Origin: Rheinheimera sp. D18
GTDB taxonomy: Bacteria > Pseudomonadota > Gammaproteobacteria > Enterobacterales > Alteromonadaceae
Assembly (NCBI RefSeq): GCF_004345025.1
Contig: NZ_CP037745.1
Location: 434,001 to 498,000 of the forward strand
Length of the DNA: 64,000 bases
Direction: 5' to 3'
Part shown: positions 15,888 to 29,419 of the stretch, piece after piece
How the letters are laid out: the number at the start of each line of letters is the position of its first letter
How positions within the stretch are numbered: the first letter of the stretch is position 1
The notes under the pieces: model-generated
The model's database searches: none
What the model was told of the DNA's origin: nothing
Seen by the model: only the letters and a program-made list of their open reading frames with translations
Position numbers and translations under genes: made by a program

Positions 15888-17689
<1,802 letters not shown>

Positions 17690-18650: not shown

Positions 18651-19301
18651 CTATCCATGAATAATTGGCAAGCAATCGACGAAGTGATGATGCATCTCTC
18701 TGATAGGCTCCATGGCTTCCTCATATCCTGCAAGAATTGACAGCATTTGCATATTTATAGCAGCAACGGCGTTGCAGTTTCGAAGAGAATCATAGATAAC
18801 CTTGGGTTCATAACCTACGCCATTGCTGACAAGAGCTGCAAGACCACTGTGTGTAAAGCTATTAAACGCAGAATTGTTAATGCCTCTAAAGTCATTCAAC
18901 TGACCGAGGATATGCTTTGGTGCTTCTGAATTATCAAGCGCTTTAAGCATATCTGCTATTAGTGGCGTTTCTAGCTTCTTGATTTGGTCTGGACCAACTT
19001 TACCTGCAGTTGCAAGTTTATTAAACCAAGCCTCAGTATTAGCGTACATGAGCCAAAATCCACGTATCAGGCTTTCGTATTGAGGGCGCATCAATGCAAA
19101 GCCCGATGATGTAAAGCCGTCAGCAATTAACTTAAGAGAAGAGAGACCATGTTCAAATGATAAAATGCCAGACTGAAAGGCCATTTGCCATTTAAGGTCC
19201 GGCATCGCTCCAAGATGTTGTAACTGCTCAACATGCTCGGCCATATAATCATACATTTCAAAGCAGCGCGGCAGCAGTGCTTCTAGTTCTTTTTCGTACA
19301 A
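18651..19301 (-). CDS. DUF6988-like hypothetical protein
   Basis: A soluble helical protein of 216 residues. Start TTG at 19301 (MYEKELEALL) has AAGGAAC four bases upstream and comes 9 bases after the stop of the ankyrin gene, so the two are probably co-translated. The segment ALMRPQYESLIRGFWLMY and the later NSFTHSGLAAL resemble the DUF6988/DUF5677 type of helical proteins often seen in accessory regions. The match is from memory and not secure. It is the last gene of the four-gene operon that begins at 21902. Confidence 0.65.
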   Translation of the reverse strand: MYEKELEALLPRCFEMYDYMAEHVEQLQHLGAMPDLKWQMAFQSGILSFEHGLSSLKLIADGFTSSGFALMRPQYESLIRGFWLMYANTEAWFNKLATAGKVGPDQIKKLETPLIADMLKALDNSEAPKHILGQLNDFRGINNSAFNSFTHSGLAALVSNGVGYEPKVIYDSLRNCNAVAAINMQMLSILAGYEEAMEPIREMHHHFVDCLPIIHG

Positions 19302-19310
19302 AACTGTTCC

Positions 19311-21524
19311 TTAGTGCCTCAAAGCCAAAATTGAGCGGGAGCGCCAGAAGGCGGCAATCTGCCATGAATTGTTAGCTGTTTTAGTGTTAGGGTCAATAAA
19401 GGTTTTATGTGGTTTACCACCATGCTCAAGCATTAGCGAATATAGTTCTCCCTCATCTAACTCTGCGGCTAACATTAACGGGGTATAACCTTTGGCCGGG
19501 CTGTTGTGCTCTGCATTGACATCTGAGCCTTGTCTTATTAGTAGTCTTGCAATGTCTCTAAGTTCTTCGATGTTGGTATGCTTGCATACTCGCTCAATCA
19601 TCAAATCGGCCATCAATTCTGATATTTCTTTGTAGAACTGCGTTTTTCTATGTTCAGATAATTGTGCCTGTAACTCCGAGAGGCTAAAGCCAAAATCTCC
19701 AGCTGACAACCTCCTACCCACGTCTATGAGTTCTGGCGTTATCGGGTGTTGCAACATGATTTCCCGAAATCTCTTCGGATTTTTTTTAATGCCGACCAGT
19801 TTAACAATCTCATTTAGTGCAGTTTGGTTATCCGCTAAACCACGCCTACTAACATCCGCACCTAACTCTAAAATCTTACTTACTATTTCGAACTTGCCCG
19901 TTCTGACAGCTTGTATTAGTGCGAGGTGCTTTTGCTTTTCCGTTTTTTGATTTACTGTGCCTGGAGTCATCGGATTTTTGATTATCGCGTCGTAATAGCG
20001 CCTATCAAGAGACATATAGGGTACTTCGAGTAAATCGAGTTTATGGAGTGACAGCAGTAATGGTGTATCGCCAACCTTGGAGCAGACATTTACGTCAGTA
20101 CCTTGCTGAAGAAGTTGGTTAACTGAAGATAAATCATCCATCATGATGAAATAATTAATTTGAGGCATTCTTCGCTGCCATGTACTGCCAACGTTGATTT
20201 TCTTGTCTGGATACCTTAAATCAGGCTTAAGCTCGCTATTAAGGTCTAGCATCAATGGACCATAGTTTGCTGTGAATGAATAAGAGACGCCTGGAAACAA
20301 AGTGCGAGGTAAGAACATCTGAGCAAACCCTTTTCGCCACATATCAACTTCCCACTTTTCCACAGTGTCTTTAAAGCGTAATTGTTTTTGCCCGGATTCG
20401 ACCTCAGCTGAGGTAATGTCATAGCCGAACAGCACCTGAGCTGCTTTAAGCTTTTTAAGAAATACGTTATCGGGATTCTCTGCGGCACTTGTAACCAACA
20501 AGCTCTCATTTACTACTTGCTCAATGTACGCCCCGCCGCAGCATAGCAAAGCATCAAATGCTTTTTCATAGAGCTCTTTTGCAGGTTCTAAGTGACCTGA
20601 CAGAACTAAAAATCTTGCTTCAAACCACTTGAGCAATCCCTCGCCGCCCTTTGGAATTAGGGATGTAGGGATGTTTTTACAGACTTGTAGTTGTTTGGCG
20701 GCAGATTCAAAGTCATCTAATGTTTTCTGCCGTTTGACCAGAATTTTCTCTAAAGCTGATAGCACTTTTCGAAAACTAACAAATGCCGAGAAATAACGAT
20801 TTGGCTGTCTATTCATCTTTGCTTGCAAATCGAAGCTGCCAGAAACGTGTATGTCGATGGCGCCTTTAATAAGTCGTTTGCCCCAACTTTTTTTCTTAAG
20901 TGCGTCAATGAATTTGGCTGTAAACAATAGTGGCAATGTATAAGATTGACTGTCCGGAGGGATTATCGCTCTCAGACTTTGGTTATCAGGAAGATGCTTT
21001 CCTGTGCGCCAATTTCTGATTTTATCTTTGTCTTCTTTGGTTGCCTCTTCAAATTTTTTCCAGTCCAAAAACGTATCACTGCACCACTGCCAAACCTGGT
21101 CAAAGGCTGAATGGGAACTCAATAAATCCAGAGCCGAAGGCGCATGATAACGTCTAAACGGGTAGAACACTTTTGTTAGTAAGGGCTCTAGCTGTATAGC
21201 GAAAAAATACCGGTTGATAGTAACAAGCGCTCTTTCACGGCTAGAGCCAATGAAAAATCCACAACCCGCCATTTTTTGACAGTATGTACTGATAACTGAA
21301 TTTATCGTGTGTTTAGTAAATTCAGCAAAACCATTCAGATCGCTTTGGGCTAAGCCTTCATAAAATACGCTATTTATTAGTTCACTGATTTGAACGGGGT
21401 GAAGAACTGCTTCTCTAACTTTATCATCCAAGGACTTTGTTGATTTAGTATTTCGAATGCCAAAACAGCCAGCTGTTTCTCGAATGATTTCAACGGGTGT
21501 TGGTAGAATGAATCCCTTTGTCAT
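19311..21524 (-). CDS. Large ankyrin-repeat protein with helical N-terminal region (candidate defence protein)
   Basis: The 737 residues have no signal peptide. The N-terminal 450 residues are helical and of no recognised family. Within them, KIRNWRTGKHLPDNQSLRAI looks like the end of an XRE-type helix-turn-helix, and the segment around WFEARFLVLSGHLEPAKELYEKAF resembles a TPR hairpin. The C-terminal third has ankyrin repeats: SSVNQLLQQGTDVNV.., FEIVSKILELGADVS.., LRDIARLLIRQGSDVNA.. and a last GYTPLMLAAE unit. The start overlaps the HicA-like gene by 4 bases (ATGA type), which indicates translational coupling. Ankyrin repeats bind proteins, so it may neutralise or direct the small HicA-like protein. 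Confidence 0.75.
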   Translation of the reverse strand: MTKGFILPTPVEIIRETAGCFGIRNTKSTKSLDDKVREAVLHPVQISELINSVFYEGLAQSDLNGFAEFTKHTINSVISTYCQKMAGCGFFIGSSRERALVTINRYFFAIQLEPLLTKVFYPFRRYHAPSALDLLSSHSAFDQVWQWCSDTFLDWKKFEEATKEDKDKIRNWRTGKHLPDNQSLRAIIPPDSQSYTLPLLFTAKFIDALKKKSWGKRLIKGAIDIHVSGSFDLQAKMNRQPNRYFSAFVSFRKVLSALEKILVKRQKTLDDFESAAKQLQVCKNIPTSLIPKGGEGLLKWFEARFLVLSGHLEPAKELYEKAFDALLCCGGAYIEQVVNESLLVTSAAENPDNVFLKKLKAAQVLFGYDITSAEVESGQKQLRFKDTVEKWEVDMWRKGFAQMFLPRTLFPGVSYSFTANYGPLMLDLNSELKPDLRYPDKKINVGSTWQRRMPQINYFIMMDDLSSVNQLLQQGTDVNVCSKVGDTPLLLSLHKLDLLEVPYMSLDRRYYDAIIKNPMTPGTVNQKTEKQKHLALIQAVRTGKFEIVSKILELGADVSRRGLADNQTALNEIVKLVGIKKNPKRFREIMLQHPITPELIDVGRRLSAGDFGFSLSELQAQLSEHRKTQFYKEISELMADLMIERVCKHTNIEELRDIARLLIRQGSDVNAEHNSPAKGYTPLMLAAELDEGELYSLMLEHGGKPHKTFIDPNTKTANNSWQIAAFWRSRSILALRH

Positions 21525-21730
21525 ACAGCCTCCGTGGCGCAGTAACGTCTAATATCGCGTTTAAAGTTATCCAAGGCTCTCTTGTCACTTGGTGAGCTTG
21601 GTACTACAACTCTTTTACCTGAAGGGGCTAAAAGCTTTGAATGCTTCTTTCCGTGGATAAAAGTACAGCCCGCTTTGCAAAGTTGCTTAATATACACATT
21701 AAAGTCTTTATTTGAGGTAAATTTTTTCAT
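21521..21730 (-). CDS. HicA-like small protein (putative mRNA interferase toxin fold)
   Basis: The 69-residue layout matches the HicA double-stranded-RNA-binding fold: helix (DFNVYIKQLCKAG), strand with a His (GKKHSKLLAP), then SGKRVVVPSS and a final helix (LDNFKRDIRRY). In HicA the histidine in the GSHR-like strand is catalytic; here GKKHSK keeps the His at that place. No hicB gene is adjacent. Instead it overlaps a 737-residue ankyrin protein by 4 bases and follows a 42-codon gene. The ribosome site is CAGGG. It could be a toxin guarded by the ankyrin protein, or a HicA-fold RNA binder with no toxicity. Confidence 0.65.
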   Translation of the reverse strand: MKKFTSNKDFNVYIKQLCKAGCTFIHGKKHSKLLAPSGKRVVVPSSPSDKRALDNFKRDIRRYCATEAV

Positions 21731-21743
21731 AGTCTAACCCTGA

Positions 21744-21765
21744 AGCGGGGGAAAGTTCCCCCGCT
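21744..21765. terminator. Perfect 10-bp hairpin between the 42-codon gene and the HicA-like gene
   Basis: AGCGGGGGAA (21744-21753) pairs with TTCCCCCGCT (21756-21765). There is no T-run on either side, so it is more likely an attenuator, an mRNA stabiliser or a translation-control hairpin than a classical terminator. It ends 13 bases before the HicA-like start. Confidence 0.55.
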
Positions 21766-21773
21766 GATATGCA

Positions 21774-21902
21774 CTAACGCTTTGCCGGTACTGGAACTGC
21801 AATGCCACGACCTTTACCAGATGGATTGCCGGTAGTGCTTGGCCAATTGCCGCCATTGCCAGGTTGGTTTGATACTGGGCGAGATGAACCTTGTTTACTC
21901 AT
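21774..21902 (-). CDS. 42-residue Gly/Pro/Ser-rich small protein
   Basis: ATG at 21902 follows TGAGGAAAAAGCA, a good ribosome site; the stop TAG is at 21774-21776. The product is disordered in composition: it starts MSKQGSSRPVS, has GNGGNWPSTTGNPSGKGRG in the middle and ends basic (VPAKR). The strong ribosome site, the low-complexity but not random composition, and the position 43 bases in front of the HicA-like gene on the same strand support a real gene. Function unknown; an antitoxin, a decoy or a regulator of the operon are open possibilities. Confidence 0.6.
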   Translation of the reverse strand: MSKQGSSRPVSNQPGNGGNWPSTTGNPSGKGRGIAVPVPAKR

Positions 21903-22050: not shown

Positions 22051-22611
22051 GTGTTAGTGAATTTACATTGCACCAAAAAGCTTTTTGAACAACTGAGCAT
22101 TTCACGTTTTGAGGCGGGCGAAACGAGTGCCTCGACCCAGGCGAATCCTTTGCTTAATTGGCATGCCAATATAGTTACCATTCAGCGTAAACAAAACTTG
22201 GTGTTTATAAACGATGCTACCCGGTACGCGGTGTTTATACCCTGTGTGATCAAAAGTGATCTGAACCGCTTACCCATTCTGTTTCAAGACGTTTTCATAA
22301 ACAGTCTGATGAAAGCTGGATTGTCGAGTGAGCTTGTGGAAAAGGCCGCGCTATATTTACACGATTCGGAAGTGAGTCTGGATACAGAGTGCAGTCGCTC
22401 AGTACAAGGAACAATGAGGTTAATGGTCAGTGATGTAGAGATAACACTCGATTACAGAGGCCAGAAGATCAGTGATTTACTGCCATATTCAACATCAGTA
22501 ATGCTATCTGACCGTCCATGCACAATCAAAGGTGTAAAGGGTGCTATTTGGCCAATCAGAGAAAAGGACAATTTACTAAGAGGCCTTCCAAGCATACAGG
22601 CGGTTGAATGA
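22051..22611 (+). CDS. DUF6933-like protein
   Basis: GTG at 22051 with AGGCGG close upstream (a second GTG two codons later is also possible). The 186 residues begin with LHCTKKLFEQL, then NPLLNWHANIVTIQRKQ and VFINDATRYAVFIP. This order (CTKKL, NPL.WHAN, N..TRY) is characteristic of the DUF6933 family as I recall it; biochemical function is unknown. Its stop overlaps the start of the nuclease-like gene by 4 bases, so the two form an operon and possibly a two-protein system. It is divergent to the HicA/ankyrin operon, 148 bases away. Confidence 0.7.
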   Translation: MLVNLHCTKKLFEQLSISRFEAGETSASTQANPLLNWHANIVTIQRKQNLVFINDATRYAVFIPCVIKSDLNRLPILFQDVFINSLMKAGLSSELVEKAALYLHDSEVSLDTECSRSVQGTMRLMVSDVEITLDYRGQKISDLLPYSTSVMLSDRPCTIKGVKGAIWPIREKDNLLRGLPSIQAVE

Positions 22612-23435: not shown

Positions 23436-23447
23436 TTGGATCTGGTA

Positions 23448-24377
23448 GTGAATAGAAAACTATACATAATCGGGAATGGTTTTGATTTATGGCATGGGTT
23501 GCCAACGAGCTATGGGCACTTTTCTGAATATGCATACAGTTTGCTCTCTGAAATTGAGAATTATTATGCTCTGGATTTTAATCAGTACAACCCTTGGCAT
23601 GATTTCGAAAATGCACTTGGTGATTTCGACTCAGATACTTTTTTAGATAATTATAATGAGATAGATGCCAGTGCAGATGACTTTAGACCTAGCTTTGTCT
23701 ATGGTCTGGAAGATGAATTGACTGAACAAACCAACACACATGTTGATGCTATTCGGGACACTTTTTCTGAATGGATCAATCAGATTGATGTTAGCAAAGC
23801 TGTTGTGAAATTGACATTTCCCGAACATTCATTGTTTTTATCGTTTAATTACACATCGACTTTGCAGACCGTTTACGGAGTCGATAGCAATTGTATATTG
23901 CATATTCATGGCAATTCAGAGAACAACGATGAACTTATTTTTGGCCATGGTGAAGACATTCATGAGATCCATGCGTTTGACGAAGATGGTGAGCCAACTG
24001 GTGACATGTTTTCGGATGCTAGAGAAAACGCTAGATACCCACTTTATGCTCTTAAGAAGCCTGTAGATGATGTCCTCGCCAGGCACGAGGGTTACTTTGA
24101 TAAGCTCCGTGATATTGGAGACGTAATTGTTATTGGGCACTCAATGAATAAAATCGATCATCCATATTTCAGAAGGATCAACCAAGTTGCTTCTGATGCT
24201 ACGTGGACAGTGGTCTATTACTCTGATGTGCAAGAAAGTGATTTTATTCAAAGTTTAATTGACTGCGGCGTAAAACCTGAGCGCATTCAATGTTATGACT
24301 ACGATATTTGGGCTTCCCGAATTGCAATTGATGTCGAAAGTGCTGACAAGCCAAAAAAGTACTTTAATGCTTGGTAA
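23448..24377 (+). CDS. abiH: AbiH-family abortive-infection protein
   Basis: Start GTG at 23448 (VNRKLYIIGNGFD) is preferred because AbiH proteins begin a few residues before IIGNGFD; TTG at 23436 is an alternative. The landmarks are NGFDLWHGLPTSYGHF at the start, the central ILHIHGN..LIFGHGED and the C-terminal IVIGHSMNKIDHPYF. These match the AbiH family. Lactococcal AbiH blocks phage growth by abortive infection, but its molecular target is unknown. It is a single-gene unit behind the 26-bp palindrome in the defence island. About 309 residues is a usual length. Confidence 0.85.
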   Translation: MNRKLYIIGNGFDLWHGLPTSYGHFSEYAYSLLSEIENYYALDFNQYNPWHDFENALGDFDSDTFLDNYNEIDASADDFRPSFVYGLEDELTEQTNTHVDAIRDTFSEWINQIDVSKAVVKLTFPEHSLFLSFNYTSTLQTVYGVDSNCILHIHGNSENNDELIFGHGEDIHEIHAFDEDGEPTGDMFSDARENARYPLYALKKPVDDVLARHEGYFDKLRDIGDVIVIGHSMNKIDHPYFRRINQVASDATWTVVYYSDVQESDFIQSLIDCGVKPERIQCYDYDIWASRIAIDVESADKPKKYFNAW

Positions 24378-25481: not shown

Positions 25482-27281
25482 CTAAATAGGCTTTTGGCTA
25501 TAGAAGAATACACAACTGTTCAGTACTTCAGTTGGTGTGTACATATTGTATCGCCCTCTACTACGGCCAGTCTCCGAAAATAGATAAAGATTTTTTCTCG
25601 CTCTTGAGCCAATGACATAAAGTAATTTCTTTGCTGAGTCGCTGCCATCTGGATCATTAAAATGAGGAACCATTCCTTCTAGTAAAGCGTAAGAAATAAC
25701 AACATCAAATTCAGCACCTTTAACGCCATGAATAGTTGAGACAGTTATGCCCGTTCTATTTTGAAAAACTTTTCTAAAAAAATTTATATCTCTTATACCA
25801 GTAATACCTTCTTTCTCTAACCTTTCAATTCTCGAGGTTGAACTATCAAAAAATGCGTCAAAGTGTTCGTTTAGTTGCTTGAAAAAGATCAATTCAATTC
25901 CAAGATGATCTAATAATTCAATGAAAAATCTCTTCAGAAAATTTAGTCCATCTTGCTCTATAGGTTGAATTGAGTTGCATAGCCTCAGTAATTCTCTTGA
26001 TGAAAGCTTTGGCAAATAAATCCCAATATCATTAAAATCTTTGATAATCTCTGCGGCCCACCGCAATCGACGAACATAATTCTCCGGTGATGGAAGTGTT
26101 AAAGCTAGTTTCGAAACTTTGTACCAATAATTCTCGATATCTCTCGCGAATGGCACCATTCCTGGACCGTCAAATGACTGTTCAGGCATATTCACTACTA
26201 ACTGTCTTGTCATTGACGCTAGATGAACCCATTGAGGAGCAACTACACAAATTTCATCTGGCTTAATATTGAGAATATCTATATTAAATCGGATTATTTT
26301 AATTATTTCATGCACTAGAGAATCGCGATGAATTAAATCGTCGTAGCAAATTATACTAGGGTATGATCTGTCCTTGCCTGCGGCGACTATATTAGTCTTA
26401 TACAAGTTATAGTTATTAAAATATTTAATTATATTTTCAGATGACCTAAAATTTTCTGTAAGTGCAAAATTCTTTATCGACAAATTTGTTATATTGATCA
26501 GTTCGGGGAGTAGAATAGGGTAACCACCTAAAGAACCGAAAATCGCCTGATTTGGATCTCCAACCATAAATAATCTGGTGTTACCGTTGCCAGCCTTTAA
26601 AATTCCAGCAAGTATTCCATATTGAATTTTTTTAGTATCTTGGTATTCATCCACCAGTATTACTGAGAAAAGTAAAGATAAAGTAAGATTAATTTCAGGA
26701 TTTTCTTTACATAGCGATCTTGCGGACCAAAGAAGAAGCTCAAAATCAATTTGTTTTTGCATTGCTAATTGATTGAAGTATTCTCTAAGTATTTCATGGA
26801 TGAATGCATGTTTTTTGTTGTCAGGGCAAATTAAATGATAGCCATTATCATTAACATAATAATCGCAATCATAATGTGTAATCTTGTCCTTTTGGTAAGG
26901 TTTGCAAAGTGATTCTAATAATTTTTCTTTTTCATGAGAGTCGATTATTCTGAATCCAGATGCAATGCTTTCCTCATAAATATGGTATGGCTTGACTATC
27001 CACTCAAGACAGAAAGAATGGATAGTTCCAATCCAAAGTTGCTCCGTTCTAATTCCTAATGACTCTACTCTTTCTTTTATTTCGTCAGCAGCCCTATTCG
27101 TATATGTTATTGCTATTACAAACTTCCTCCTTGATTGAATCATAGATAGTTCATAAGCAATTTTATAAGTCAAAGTGCGGGTTTTGCCGCTGCCAGGGCA
27201 GGCAACTAGGAATACGCTCTCTGGATGGAGAACTGCAGCAGTTTGCTCCGGCGTTAACTCAGTAGGCTGCCAAGTGAACAT
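25482..27281 (-). CDS. gajB: Gabija protein GajB, UvrD/PcrA-like helicase
   Basis: Superfamily 1 helicase partner of GajA. It has the Q-motif LTPEQTAAVLHP, Walker A ACPGSGKTRT (residues 27-36), motif Ia AITYTNRAADEIKERV, motif II VDEYQDT (about residue 210), motif III GDPNQAIFG and a C-terminal motif V STIHGVKGAEFDVV. At 599 residues it is somewhat longer than the Bacillus cereus GajB. ATG overlaps the gajA stop by one base (TAATG), the usual tight coupling. In Gabija, GajB is thought to sense free DNA ends or nucleotide depletion and to work with GajA against phage. Confidence 0.88.
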   Translation of the reverse strand: MFTWQPTELTPEQTAAVLHPESVFLVACPGSGKTRTLTYKIAYELSMIQSRRKFVIAITYTNRAADEIKERVESLGIRTEQLWIGTIHSFCLEWIVKPYHIYEESIASGFRIIDSHEKEKLLESLCKPYQKDKITHYDCDYYVNDNGYHLICPDNKKHAFIHEILREYFNQLAMQKQIDFELLLWSARSLCKENPEINLTLSLLFSVILVDEYQDTKKIQYGILAGILKAGNGNTRLFMVGDPNQAIFGSLGGYPILLPELINITNLSIKNFALTENFRSSENIIKYFNNYNLYKTNIVAAGKDRSYPSIICYDDLIHRDSLVHEIIKIIRFNIDILNIKPDEICVVAPQWVHLASMTRQLVVNMPEQSFDGPGMVPFARDIENYWYKVSKLALTLPSPENYVRRLRWAAEIIKDFNDIGIYLPKLSSRELLRLCNSIQPIEQDGLNFLKRFFIELLDHLGIELIFFKQLNEHFDAFFDSSTSRIERLEKEGITGIRDINFFRKVFQNRTGITVSTIHGVKGAEFDVVISYALLEGMVPHFNDPDGSDSAKKLLYVIGSRARKNLYLFSETGRSRGRYNMYTPTEVLNSCVFFYSQKPI

Positions 27282-29419
27282 TACGTCACGTCCTGCAATA
27301 AGTTGTGGACTTGGTCATTTGGCAGTAACAGCTGAATAGATATTTTTAAGTTTTGTAAGTTGAGATTTCCGGACAAATAACTATCTAAAAGGTCTTCTGC
27401 AGCAATTTTGGAACCTTTATCAATATTGCCATTTGTAAATGCACTAATAAGCCGATGTCTATAAATACTATTGATGAGTGCAATACCAAGCTCTTTTTTA
27501 GCGGTGAAAATGGCTTCGTAAATATATTTTGGAATTATCGTATCCGTTGTAACATGTTTTCCTAATAGAATTGCAAACCAGCCTTTGCCGCAGTTAGAAG
27601 CCATAGTAAGCACTCTTTTACCATAGTCACTAATTACTCCTGACGTGAGTTCCGTCTTTGCCAGTGATATCGTTTTTGGGTCAACATAGACCTGATCTAC
27701 TACGTTAGAAACAACGACTCCGTTACCTGATTTTATGAAGTCCACTTCAAATGTGTGTTCTGCATAATGGACAGATAACCAAATATTATTAAGGGTATAT
27801 GAATCCAGATCCGATTTTCGAAGTTTTCCTGATGCTTCAGATGATGCACACTTTTTCTTAAATTCGCTGATCACTGGGGTGTCTAAAGGTTCTGGTATGG
27901 TGTTGATGAAAGATGAATCAAGATCAGTAATTATGGCACAGTTTTTTCTAATTCTTGTGTCGTGAAAAAGCTGGGCAACATTTTTGAATCCGGTGCTACG
28001 AATATTAATAAGGCTTATACCAAGTTCATCTAGACTAAGCCCTAGTACTTTTTTGAAAAGAATAGGTATAAGTATTTCTTCCGCATCACCTTCAATTAGC
28101 ACAACGCTTTTAGCGAAGAGAAGATTGTTACGTACAGCGTCTAAGTAACGTTGAATACGTTCAATTTCGTTAGGTGATAAGTCTGTACTAGGTTGAAATG
28201 CTTCAGATACGCCATCAGAAAAACCAATTACGTTGATATTTTCAACATTACTCACTTCAGATATATGAGTAGAATGAGTTGAGTAAATAATCTGTGTATC
28301 AATGTAATTGAGCTTGTCGAAGAGACTTTTCTGGATATGAGTATGGATATGAGCCTCTGGCTCCTCTATCAGTAAAAAGTTTGCTATTGAATTCTTTTCT
28401 TTCTGATATTTGAATTCCAGTAATTTTAATGTAAGAAAAATGAGATTAGCACCACCTAGACTCAATTCATGAATGGCGCCTTCATAGCTCTCGTCTGACT
28501 CTCCTATAAATAACTTTAACGACTGAAATAATTTATCTGCCTCTTCAGGCAAATCAGAACGAATTGATAGTGAGTTTGGAGCGTATGTTTCACCTACAGT
28601 ATCTTTTATAGTATTTTTTATATCTACTCTAATTGTCTGAACATCGTCTAGTTTCTCTATGGACTGATTAAGTTCTTGTACCTTAGTAACAATAGGAAGC
28701 ATAACTGCGTTCGGTATTTCTCCACTTTTACTCTTTAGCAGTTTTAGCAGAGGGTTCGTTCTGTTGTTATGGAACTCTGCAACAACATCTCTTAGGGCTT
28801 GGACAAATGAAAGTGATATTTCTTTACTGACAGATAGAAAAGTTGGTAAACGTGCTCCAATAGTCGGCGAATCTATCTCGTTGTTGAAAATACATTTTTC
28901 AAAGTCACCTACCAATGATTTATAAATAACTTCATTAGTAAAATCTGCTGTGCTTCTTCCTGTAAAAAGCGTTTCATAATCATCTATTGTTATTTGTTCT
29001 CGGATAGCGTTCATTCCAACAGTATCAAGAGCTTTTAAAGCGGAAAATTTTAAGCGAACATCCTTTTTCGGTCTAAAAATCAGATTATAAGTAGCTTTTT
29101 TGACAACTGGTGTTTGAAGTTGTGCCGTGCCGTGCAAAAACAAAGCCTGTATTGCCTCGTCTGGTCCAATATCACTGAACTCAGCGCTGATAACAATCCA
29201 GTGGCCTCGCCAGTCCCCTATTTTTCTATTGAAATCTTGTTCCTCTAACTTAAATGCTAAACGGAGCATGTTATCGTCAAGTAGCAGCCGTATTGCTCTA
29301 AACGCGTTAGATTTCCCTGAACCATTTTCGCCAATAATCGTGTTCACGCCTTTATTAAATAGAAAACTCGTTCTGGCGAAATTACGATAGTTTACAAGCG
29401 ACAGTTTTGATATGTACAT
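27281..29419 (-). CDS. gajA: Gabija protein GajA, OLD-family ATPase/TOPRIM nuclease
   Basis: N-terminal ABC-type ATPase: Walker A GENGSGKS at residues 30-37, signature-like ELSLGGANL and Walker B LLIEEPEAH near 345. It is followed by a TOPRIM domain with VLIEGDAEEILIP near 440 (metal-binding Glu) and TDLDSSF near 498 (DxD). This ATPase-TOPRIM order next to a UvrD-like helicase is the definition of the Gabija system. GajA is a nicking endonuclease that is held back by ATP and fires when nucleotides are depleted by phage. At 712 residues it is longer than the B. cereus protein (about 578) because of an extended C-terminus of roughly 130 residues. A class 2 OLD nuclease outside Gabija is the alternative. 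Confidence 0.88.
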   Translation of the reverse strand: MYISKLSLVNYRNFARTSFLFNKGVNTIIGENGSGKSNAFRAIRLLLDDNMLRLAFKLEEQDFNRKIGDWRGHWIVISAEFSDIGPDEAIQALFLHGTAQLQTPVVKKATYNLIFRPKKDVRLKFSALKALDTVGMNAIREQITIDDYETLFTGRSTADFTNEVIYKSLVGDFEKCIFNNEIDSPTIGARLPTFLSVSKEISLSFVQALRDVVAEFHNNRTNPLLKLLKSKSGEIPNAVMLPIVTKVQELNQSIEKLDDVQTIRVDIKNTIKDTVGETYAPNSLSIRSDLPEEADKLFQSLKLFIGESDESYEGAIHELSLGGANLIFLTLKLLEFKYQKEKNSIANFLLIEEPEAHIHTHIQKSLFDKLNYIDTQIIYSTHSTHISEVSNVENINVIGFSDGVSEAFQPSTDLSPNEIERIQRYLDAVRNNLLFAKSVVLIEGDAEEILIPILFKKVLGLSLDELGISLINIRSTGFKNVAQLFHDTRIRKNCAIITDLDSSFINTIPEPLDTPVISEFKKKCASSEASGKLRKSDLDSYTLNNIWLSVHYAEHTFEVDFIKSGNGVVVSNVVDQVYVDPKTISLAKTELTSGVISDYGKRVLTMASNCGKGWFAILLGKHVTTDTIIPKYIYEAIFTAKKELGIALINSIYRHRLISAFTNGNIDKGSKIAAEDLLDSYLSGNLNLQNLKISIQLLLPNDQVHNLLQDVT

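Follow-up and report, generated by a model that had tools for sequence, protein, structure and literature searches.

A recurring operon of a basic micropeptide, a HicA-like protein and a large ankyrin protein in a defence island of Rheinheimera sp. D18

In a stretch of 64,000 nucleotides from Rheinheimera sp. D18 (contig NZ_CP037745.1, positions 434,001 to 498,000; hereafter the window), part of a genome of 3.31 Mb, we observed a compact operon in which the gene of a small HicA-like protein stands between that of a basic micropeptide and that of a large ankyrin protein, here called BIG; these three genes form a recurring unit. An earlier note on this DNA, made from the sequence alone, had joined them with a fourth, DUF6988 gene into a single system, which proved partly right: the recurring unit comprises genes 1 to 3, not 1 to 4. 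Missed in that note were the recurrence of the peptide in two types, a hairpin between the peptide gene and hicA, and viperin as a replacement of the peptide. The arrangement fits a HicA toxin with BIG as its coupled large restrainer or sensor, and ahead of it a basic peptide whose dose is set separately.

All four minus-strand open reading frames (ORFs) are open. The first encodes a type A micropeptide of 42 amino acids with the core motif PGNGGNWPSTTGNPSGKGRG (21774..21902), the second the HicA-like protein of 69 amino acids (21521..21730), the third BIG with 737 amino acids (19311..21524) and the fourth, beginning with TTG, a DUF6988 protein of 216 amino acids, PDC-S52 in PADLOC (18651..19301). 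The hicA stop and the BIG start share a 4-base overlap, gaps of 43 and 9 bases separate the peptide gene from hicA and BIG from the DUF6988 gene, and the motifs GAGG, CAGGG, CGGAGG and AAGGA upstream of the starts of genes 1 to 4 are plausible ribosome sites, all as the earlier note had read them. It was also right in seeing no HicB, the neighbours of hicA being the peptide and BIG, the latter with matches to ankyrin families and weak ones to others.

Recurrence of the three-gene unit

A survey based on HicA alone covered four partly overlapping genome sets (369, 398, 385 and 394); matches with E up to 2e-10 were kept and those above it dropped before counting, which left 26 distinct loci. BIG lies downstream of hicA in 16 of them; the BIG profile was built from some of the survey members, the remaining survey loci match it at 6e-61 or better, and at L130 the match starts at profile position 40. 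Directly upstream of hicA, these 16 loci carry a peptide of type A (four loci) or type B (11), both recognised by eye, or viperin (one, by PADLOC). Of the 10 loci lacking BIG, six lie next to viperin, a type A peptide alone accompanies hicA at G385:C25, and three (G1520, G1389, G1330) have neither. By tblastn, viperin was placed upstream of hicA in G234, at two G618 loci (one matching the C-terminal half only) and in G1417, and downstream in G1440 and in G1276, in the latter in two frames; the G234 contig ends soon after hicA, so that BIG may be present there. Altogether, seven of the 26 loci are viperin-adjacent, and one of these also has BIG: in L135 (687-4027), viperin, HicA and BIG share one operon with viperin in the micropeptide position. 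Peptide and BIG co-occur (Fisher p 3e-5, with loci that are not all independent).

Beyond the survey, copies were found on an Acinetobacter soli plasmid (type A), on a Sulfitobacter plasmid (type B, with BIG split around an IS5 insertion sequence) and in G090 (type B), and a close BIG relative is encoded at two named loci, both from Rheinheimera. Incomplete arrangements occur as well: hicA with a type A peptide and without BIG (L036, L023), and a BIG relative beside which no HicA was detected (L039). Partial matches to the N-terminal part of BIG were seen in G113 and G080. No BIG was found in phage records by protein search, nor in E. coli genomes by a distant DNA search with two queries, which is weakly informative at such divergence.

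The DUF6988 gene (family match at E 4.9e-53) was seen after BIG only in copies from Rheinheimera, that of the window included. At 16 other BIG loci, no same-strand ORF of at least 100 amino acids starts within 250 bases past the BIG end (at L066, only 43 bases are visible). The core unit therefore excludes DUF6988, and a four-gene unit was rejected because this gene was seen in the window's genus alone; of the set that the earlier note had joined, peptide, hicA and BIG recur together and DUF6988 does not. We prefer to see in it a candidate defence gene of its own, kept as a neighbour in Rheinheimera. The accessible part of one report (PMC13092281) names DUF6988 among the domains for which a role in E. 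coli defence was newly validated; a literature search for PDC-S52 returned no paper.

The proteins, the peptides and the hairpin

The HicA-like protein matches the PADLOC model of that name (E 1.7e-24), and the Pfam family HicA_toxin at E 0.024 with 15.2 bits, below the cut-off of 27; compared by sequence with solved HicA structures, the family gave no match. Structure prediction yields an alpha-beta-beta-beta-alpha arrangement and, at modest scores, the HicA fold that the earlier note had expected. That note had also seen an expected His; His30 is invariant in 18 of 18 sequences and immediately precedes the second strand, which spans 31-34 in the model, a position which we take to be the catalytic one of HicA. 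The protein may be an RNA-targeting effector with RNase activity. In R. hassiensis (L003:7796-8035), the hicA frame shifts after about residue 53, and peptide and BIG remain open.

The model of BIG (mean predicted local distance difference test, pLDDT, of 86) places about 430 helical residues before ankyrin repeats: residues 1-430 (20235..21524, minus strand) are predicted to be all-helical and perhaps resemble tetratricopeptide repeats (TPR), and residues 431-737 (19311..20234) form the predicted ankyrin domain. Ank_2 matches the window protein at E 2.1e-11 (44.6 bits against a cut-off of 27.3), and ankyrin families were matched in all 17 aligned members (E up to 1). Of the parts that the earlier note had assigned to BIG, the ankyrin repeats thus stand; the TPR matches are weak (TPR_2 in 3 of 17 members, best E 0.09), and the helix-turn-helix (HTH) is seen by eye alone, in a W..G..P stretch within residues 1-430 that resembles the XRE type, with no HTH family reaching a usable score (FAN1_HTH in one of 17, E 0.049). 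The large ankyrin partner is, as that note had seen, coupled to hicA, and it is conserved over wide distances: the BIG start overlaps the hicA end in eight of the ten loci with both ends seen, and ten distant members with 19-31% identity to the window protein still show, by eye, PxPxEI at the start, the W..G..P stretch and an ankyrin part. Kinship with the PADLOC model 'Ankyrin' was considered and dropped, its matches being weak and confined to the ankyrin part. Foldseek matches include RNase L chains (ranks 44, 48-50), and the VIA list was taken up by ankyrin chains, so that the first 430 residues of BIG were barely tested there. BIG may be a sensor or guard.

Two relatives each differ from the 42-residue gene of the window by 13 base changes, of which 10 and 9, respectively, fall at third codon positions; because of this bias and its recurrence elsewhere, we regard it as a real gene that evolves as protein. 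The window peptide matches no family in Pfam, PADLOC, NCBIfam or PHROG. The peptides fall into two types without clear mutual similarity by eye, and both are strongly basic (isoelectric points of 10.7-12 over 27 sequences of both types, 12 for the window peptide). Type A is marked by the core GGNWPSTTG..SG..RGN, of which L036 and L023 keep a shorter form. Type B is similar to the seed maturation protein (SMP) domain of Pfam, PF04927: of three peptides tested, two scored over the cut-off (E 9e-5, 5e-6) and one below it (E 0.019). In the BIG tree, which has several long branches, type A rows appear in three places. The idea that peptide type marks one BIG lineage was set aside, yet a single clade per type is not rejected by the approximately unbiased (AU) test (p 0.0525 for A, 0.0629 for B), so that a swapping of peptide types between BIG lineages is suggested only.

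Type A also exists as a stand-alone gene, on viral contigs (L081-L094, L096, L097) and on plasmids (L073, L075, L076, L079). On viral contigs, 16 of 17 pattern matches lie in frame within a short ORF; the plasmid search gave 29 records at E up to 1, none covering more than 80% of the query. In the DNA retrieved for L073-L098, no HicA or BIG match was found apart from one fragment of BIG in L080, a locus chosen because of BIG. On enterobacterial plasmids, longer proteins of about 94-113 residues end in the type A motif as a C-terminal tail (L074:2100-2390, L077:3779-4084, L078:2222-2563, L133:869-1153), and such a tail occurs even on a Salmonella plasmid of 2364 bases. No type A peptide was found in phage records, and a plasmid search with one type B query returned nothing, a peptide that the low-complexity filter of BLAST may mask. 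Two single loci may be added: on a viral contig (L098:7494-7798), a viperin gene is shortly followed by an ORF for a type B, SMP-like peptide, and in Neisseria (L007:5001-5361), a small ORF rich in Asn and Gly stands after a HicA relative and may represent a third type of peptide.

In the window, a hairpin of nine pairs with no mismatches and a loop of 4 (21744..21765, minus strand; dinucleotide z -2.9) separates the stop of the peptide gene from the start of hicA, with no T-run behind it. A strong stem occupies this gap in 19 of 20 loci (the exception is L036) and also in L116, outside the 20, compared with 7 of 40 same-strand control gaps of 35-75 bases in that DNA; with close relatives counted once, it is present in 15 of 16 locus groups, its form conserved and its sequence varying between groups, at 5-39 bases from the hicA start. 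Upstream of hicA at 12 peptide-less loci, the best stems have at most three G-C pairs, some being long and AT-rich (14 pairs in L007), and the viperin-HicA-BIG locus (L101/L135) has no comparable stem. Several, not all, of the stand-alone type A genes likewise have a stem after the stop. An ordinary intrinsic terminator was rejected: none is called there in the window, and by eye the other gaps have no long T-run (the longest is TATTTT, in L014/L015).

Genomic setting and possible mode of action

The operon stands, as the earlier note had supposed, in a defence island with known and candidate defence genes nearby: a PDC-S63 gene (22051-22611), AbiH (23436-24377) and both Gabija genes (25482-29419; GajB 3.4e-247, GajA 1.4e-302), with istA and istB of IS21 type (15888-17689) about 1 kb from the 3' end of the operon. 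The unit recurs beside known defence genes in distant genomes, namely BrxL and PglZ of BREX (L037), Mrr with HsdM of a type I restriction-modification system (L139), GmrSD upstream (L142) and a TIR/ThsB-like protein (L040). Four of ten tested neighbour proteins had no match; chosen by eye as they were, these neighbours lend support and give no rate.

We read the unit, with confidence that is evenly divided, as a compact toxin-guard defence operon with a HicA RNase as effector, BIG as its restrainer and sensor, and the hairpin and peptide limiting HicA. The micropeptide would be made first, and the hairpin would uncouple its output from that of the toxin, so that peptide exceeds toxin. HicA, a small RNase of HicA fold, would be the effector; BIG, translated from the overlapping start codon, would bind it and keep it inactive, and its ankyrin/helical surface would monitor the cell for a phage-made signal. 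Upon infection, HicA would be freed and cut RNA, and the phage would be stopped, with the host surviving or not. The basic peptide might be a second restraint that either binds HicA or covers RNA. The RNase activity, the inhibition and sensing by BIG and the role of the peptide are what we infer from this arrangement. Two types of peptide, or viperin, in one slot argue against a simple dedicated antitoxin, and the peptide-HicA pairs without BIG (L036, L023) argue against BIG being indispensable. As a doubtful extension, the micropeptides could be exchangeable, mobile antitoxins or counter-defence agents: either of the basic, disordered types would silence HicA in HicA-BIG operons, and the stand-alone type A motifs of plasmids and viral contigs would neutralise the HicA-ankyrin defence of a host.

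In a rather less probable account, BIG alone would be the antitoxin and autorepressor, replacing HicB and resembling an HTH protein in its N-terminal part. The peptide gene would then be a leader ORF that, by being translated and together with the hairpin, sets the translation of hicA, with no effect of the peptide itself on HicA. The frequent overlap of hicA and BIG, the XRE-like stretch and the position of the hairpin close to the hicA start speak for it. However, the type A core is kept well past the needs of a leader, in stand-alone genes too, the absence of a usable HTH score weighs against an autorepressor, and hicA accompanied by a type A peptide exists without BIG. The toxin-guard reading is also to be weighed against an ordinary toxin-antitoxin module that persists through addiction and travels as mobile cargo alongside defence genes with no sensing of phage, which we hold to be unlikely. 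A patchy occurrence (in 12 of 197 relatives, several of which match only in part), damaged copies and insertion sequences nearby would suit such a module, but the repeated proximity to known defence systems, once to viperin, would not, and for simple addiction, a partner some 700 residues long is large.

Least probable, and indeed quite improbable, is that the hairpin RNA keeps HicA, whose fold binds dsRNA, in check in the manner of type III toxin-antitoxin systems or serves as its autoregulatory target, with the peptide as bystander or RNA chaperone: a form conserved without its sequence, two both-sided changes between the L014 and L015 stems and the lack of a comparable G+C-rich stem at peptide-less hicA genes would agree with this, but a plain insulating or processing stem accounts for the same facts, the same two stems also show a change on one side only and, of 19 pairs, one that is broken, and the viperin-HicA-BIG locus does without such a stem. 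Type III systems are marked by tandem RNA repeats and a terminator ahead of the toxin gene; the window has one hairpin and no T-run, and by eye, with no dedicated repeat search, no repeats in the 43-base gap.

Known systems and significance

HicAB type II modules (classes 1-8 of Gerdes 2024, PMC10865869, in the accessible part of that paper) have in common with this operon a small HicA-fold protein, an adjacent and often overlapping partner gene and a place in defence islands; here, however, HicB is missing, and an ankyrin partner and a micropeptide are found instead. The HicA proteins beside prokaryotic viperins (classes 9 and 10 in the same part) are relatives of the same profile, but the micropeptide holds the place of viperin in 15 of 16 BIG operons. 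Ankyrin is not among the 14 HicA context classes listed there, and the word occurs 0 times in the main text as accessible. In the numbering of PADLOC, PDLC02910 (HicA-like) and PDLC02908 (Ankyrin) stand near the pVip models (PDLC02903-05), and its authors may therefore know of a viperin link. RNase L resembles the operon in pairing ankyrin repeats with an RNase, but here the genes are separate, the nuclease is unrelated and the structural match runs via generic ankyrin repeats. Toxin-antitoxin-chaperone or guard modules of the CmdTAC kind share three genes, a small toxin, a small disordered partner and a third protein that possibly senses phage; unlike them, this operon has no SecB-like chaperone, and the folds are unrelated.

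In the accessible text of the DefensePredictor study (PMC13092281), DUF6988 and HicA domains occur in operons protecting E. coli from phage, with 0 mentions of 'ankyrin', and the accessible part of a HicAB review (PMC11594946) has no ankyrin either. Full-text searches of a library with few subscription papers and no preprints returned no HicA-ankyrin operon with or without micropeptide (the few papers that did surface for ankyrin dealt with other topics), no paper on seed maturation protein with HicA and none on viperin with ankyrin repeat, in agreement with the earlier note, which knew of no described system with this gene set. HicA beside viperin is already published; the micropeptide-HicA-ankyrin operon looks new as a toxin-antitoxin defence.

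To a much-studied toxin family, the operon adds a HicB-less context of HicA with a candidate ankyrin guard, and it offers a testable lead on the control of HicB-less HicA proteins, the viperin-adjacent ones included. It also reveals, among plasmids and viral contigs, a family of basic micropeptides that is highly conserved and mostly unannotated, and for which it provides a concrete candidate partner.
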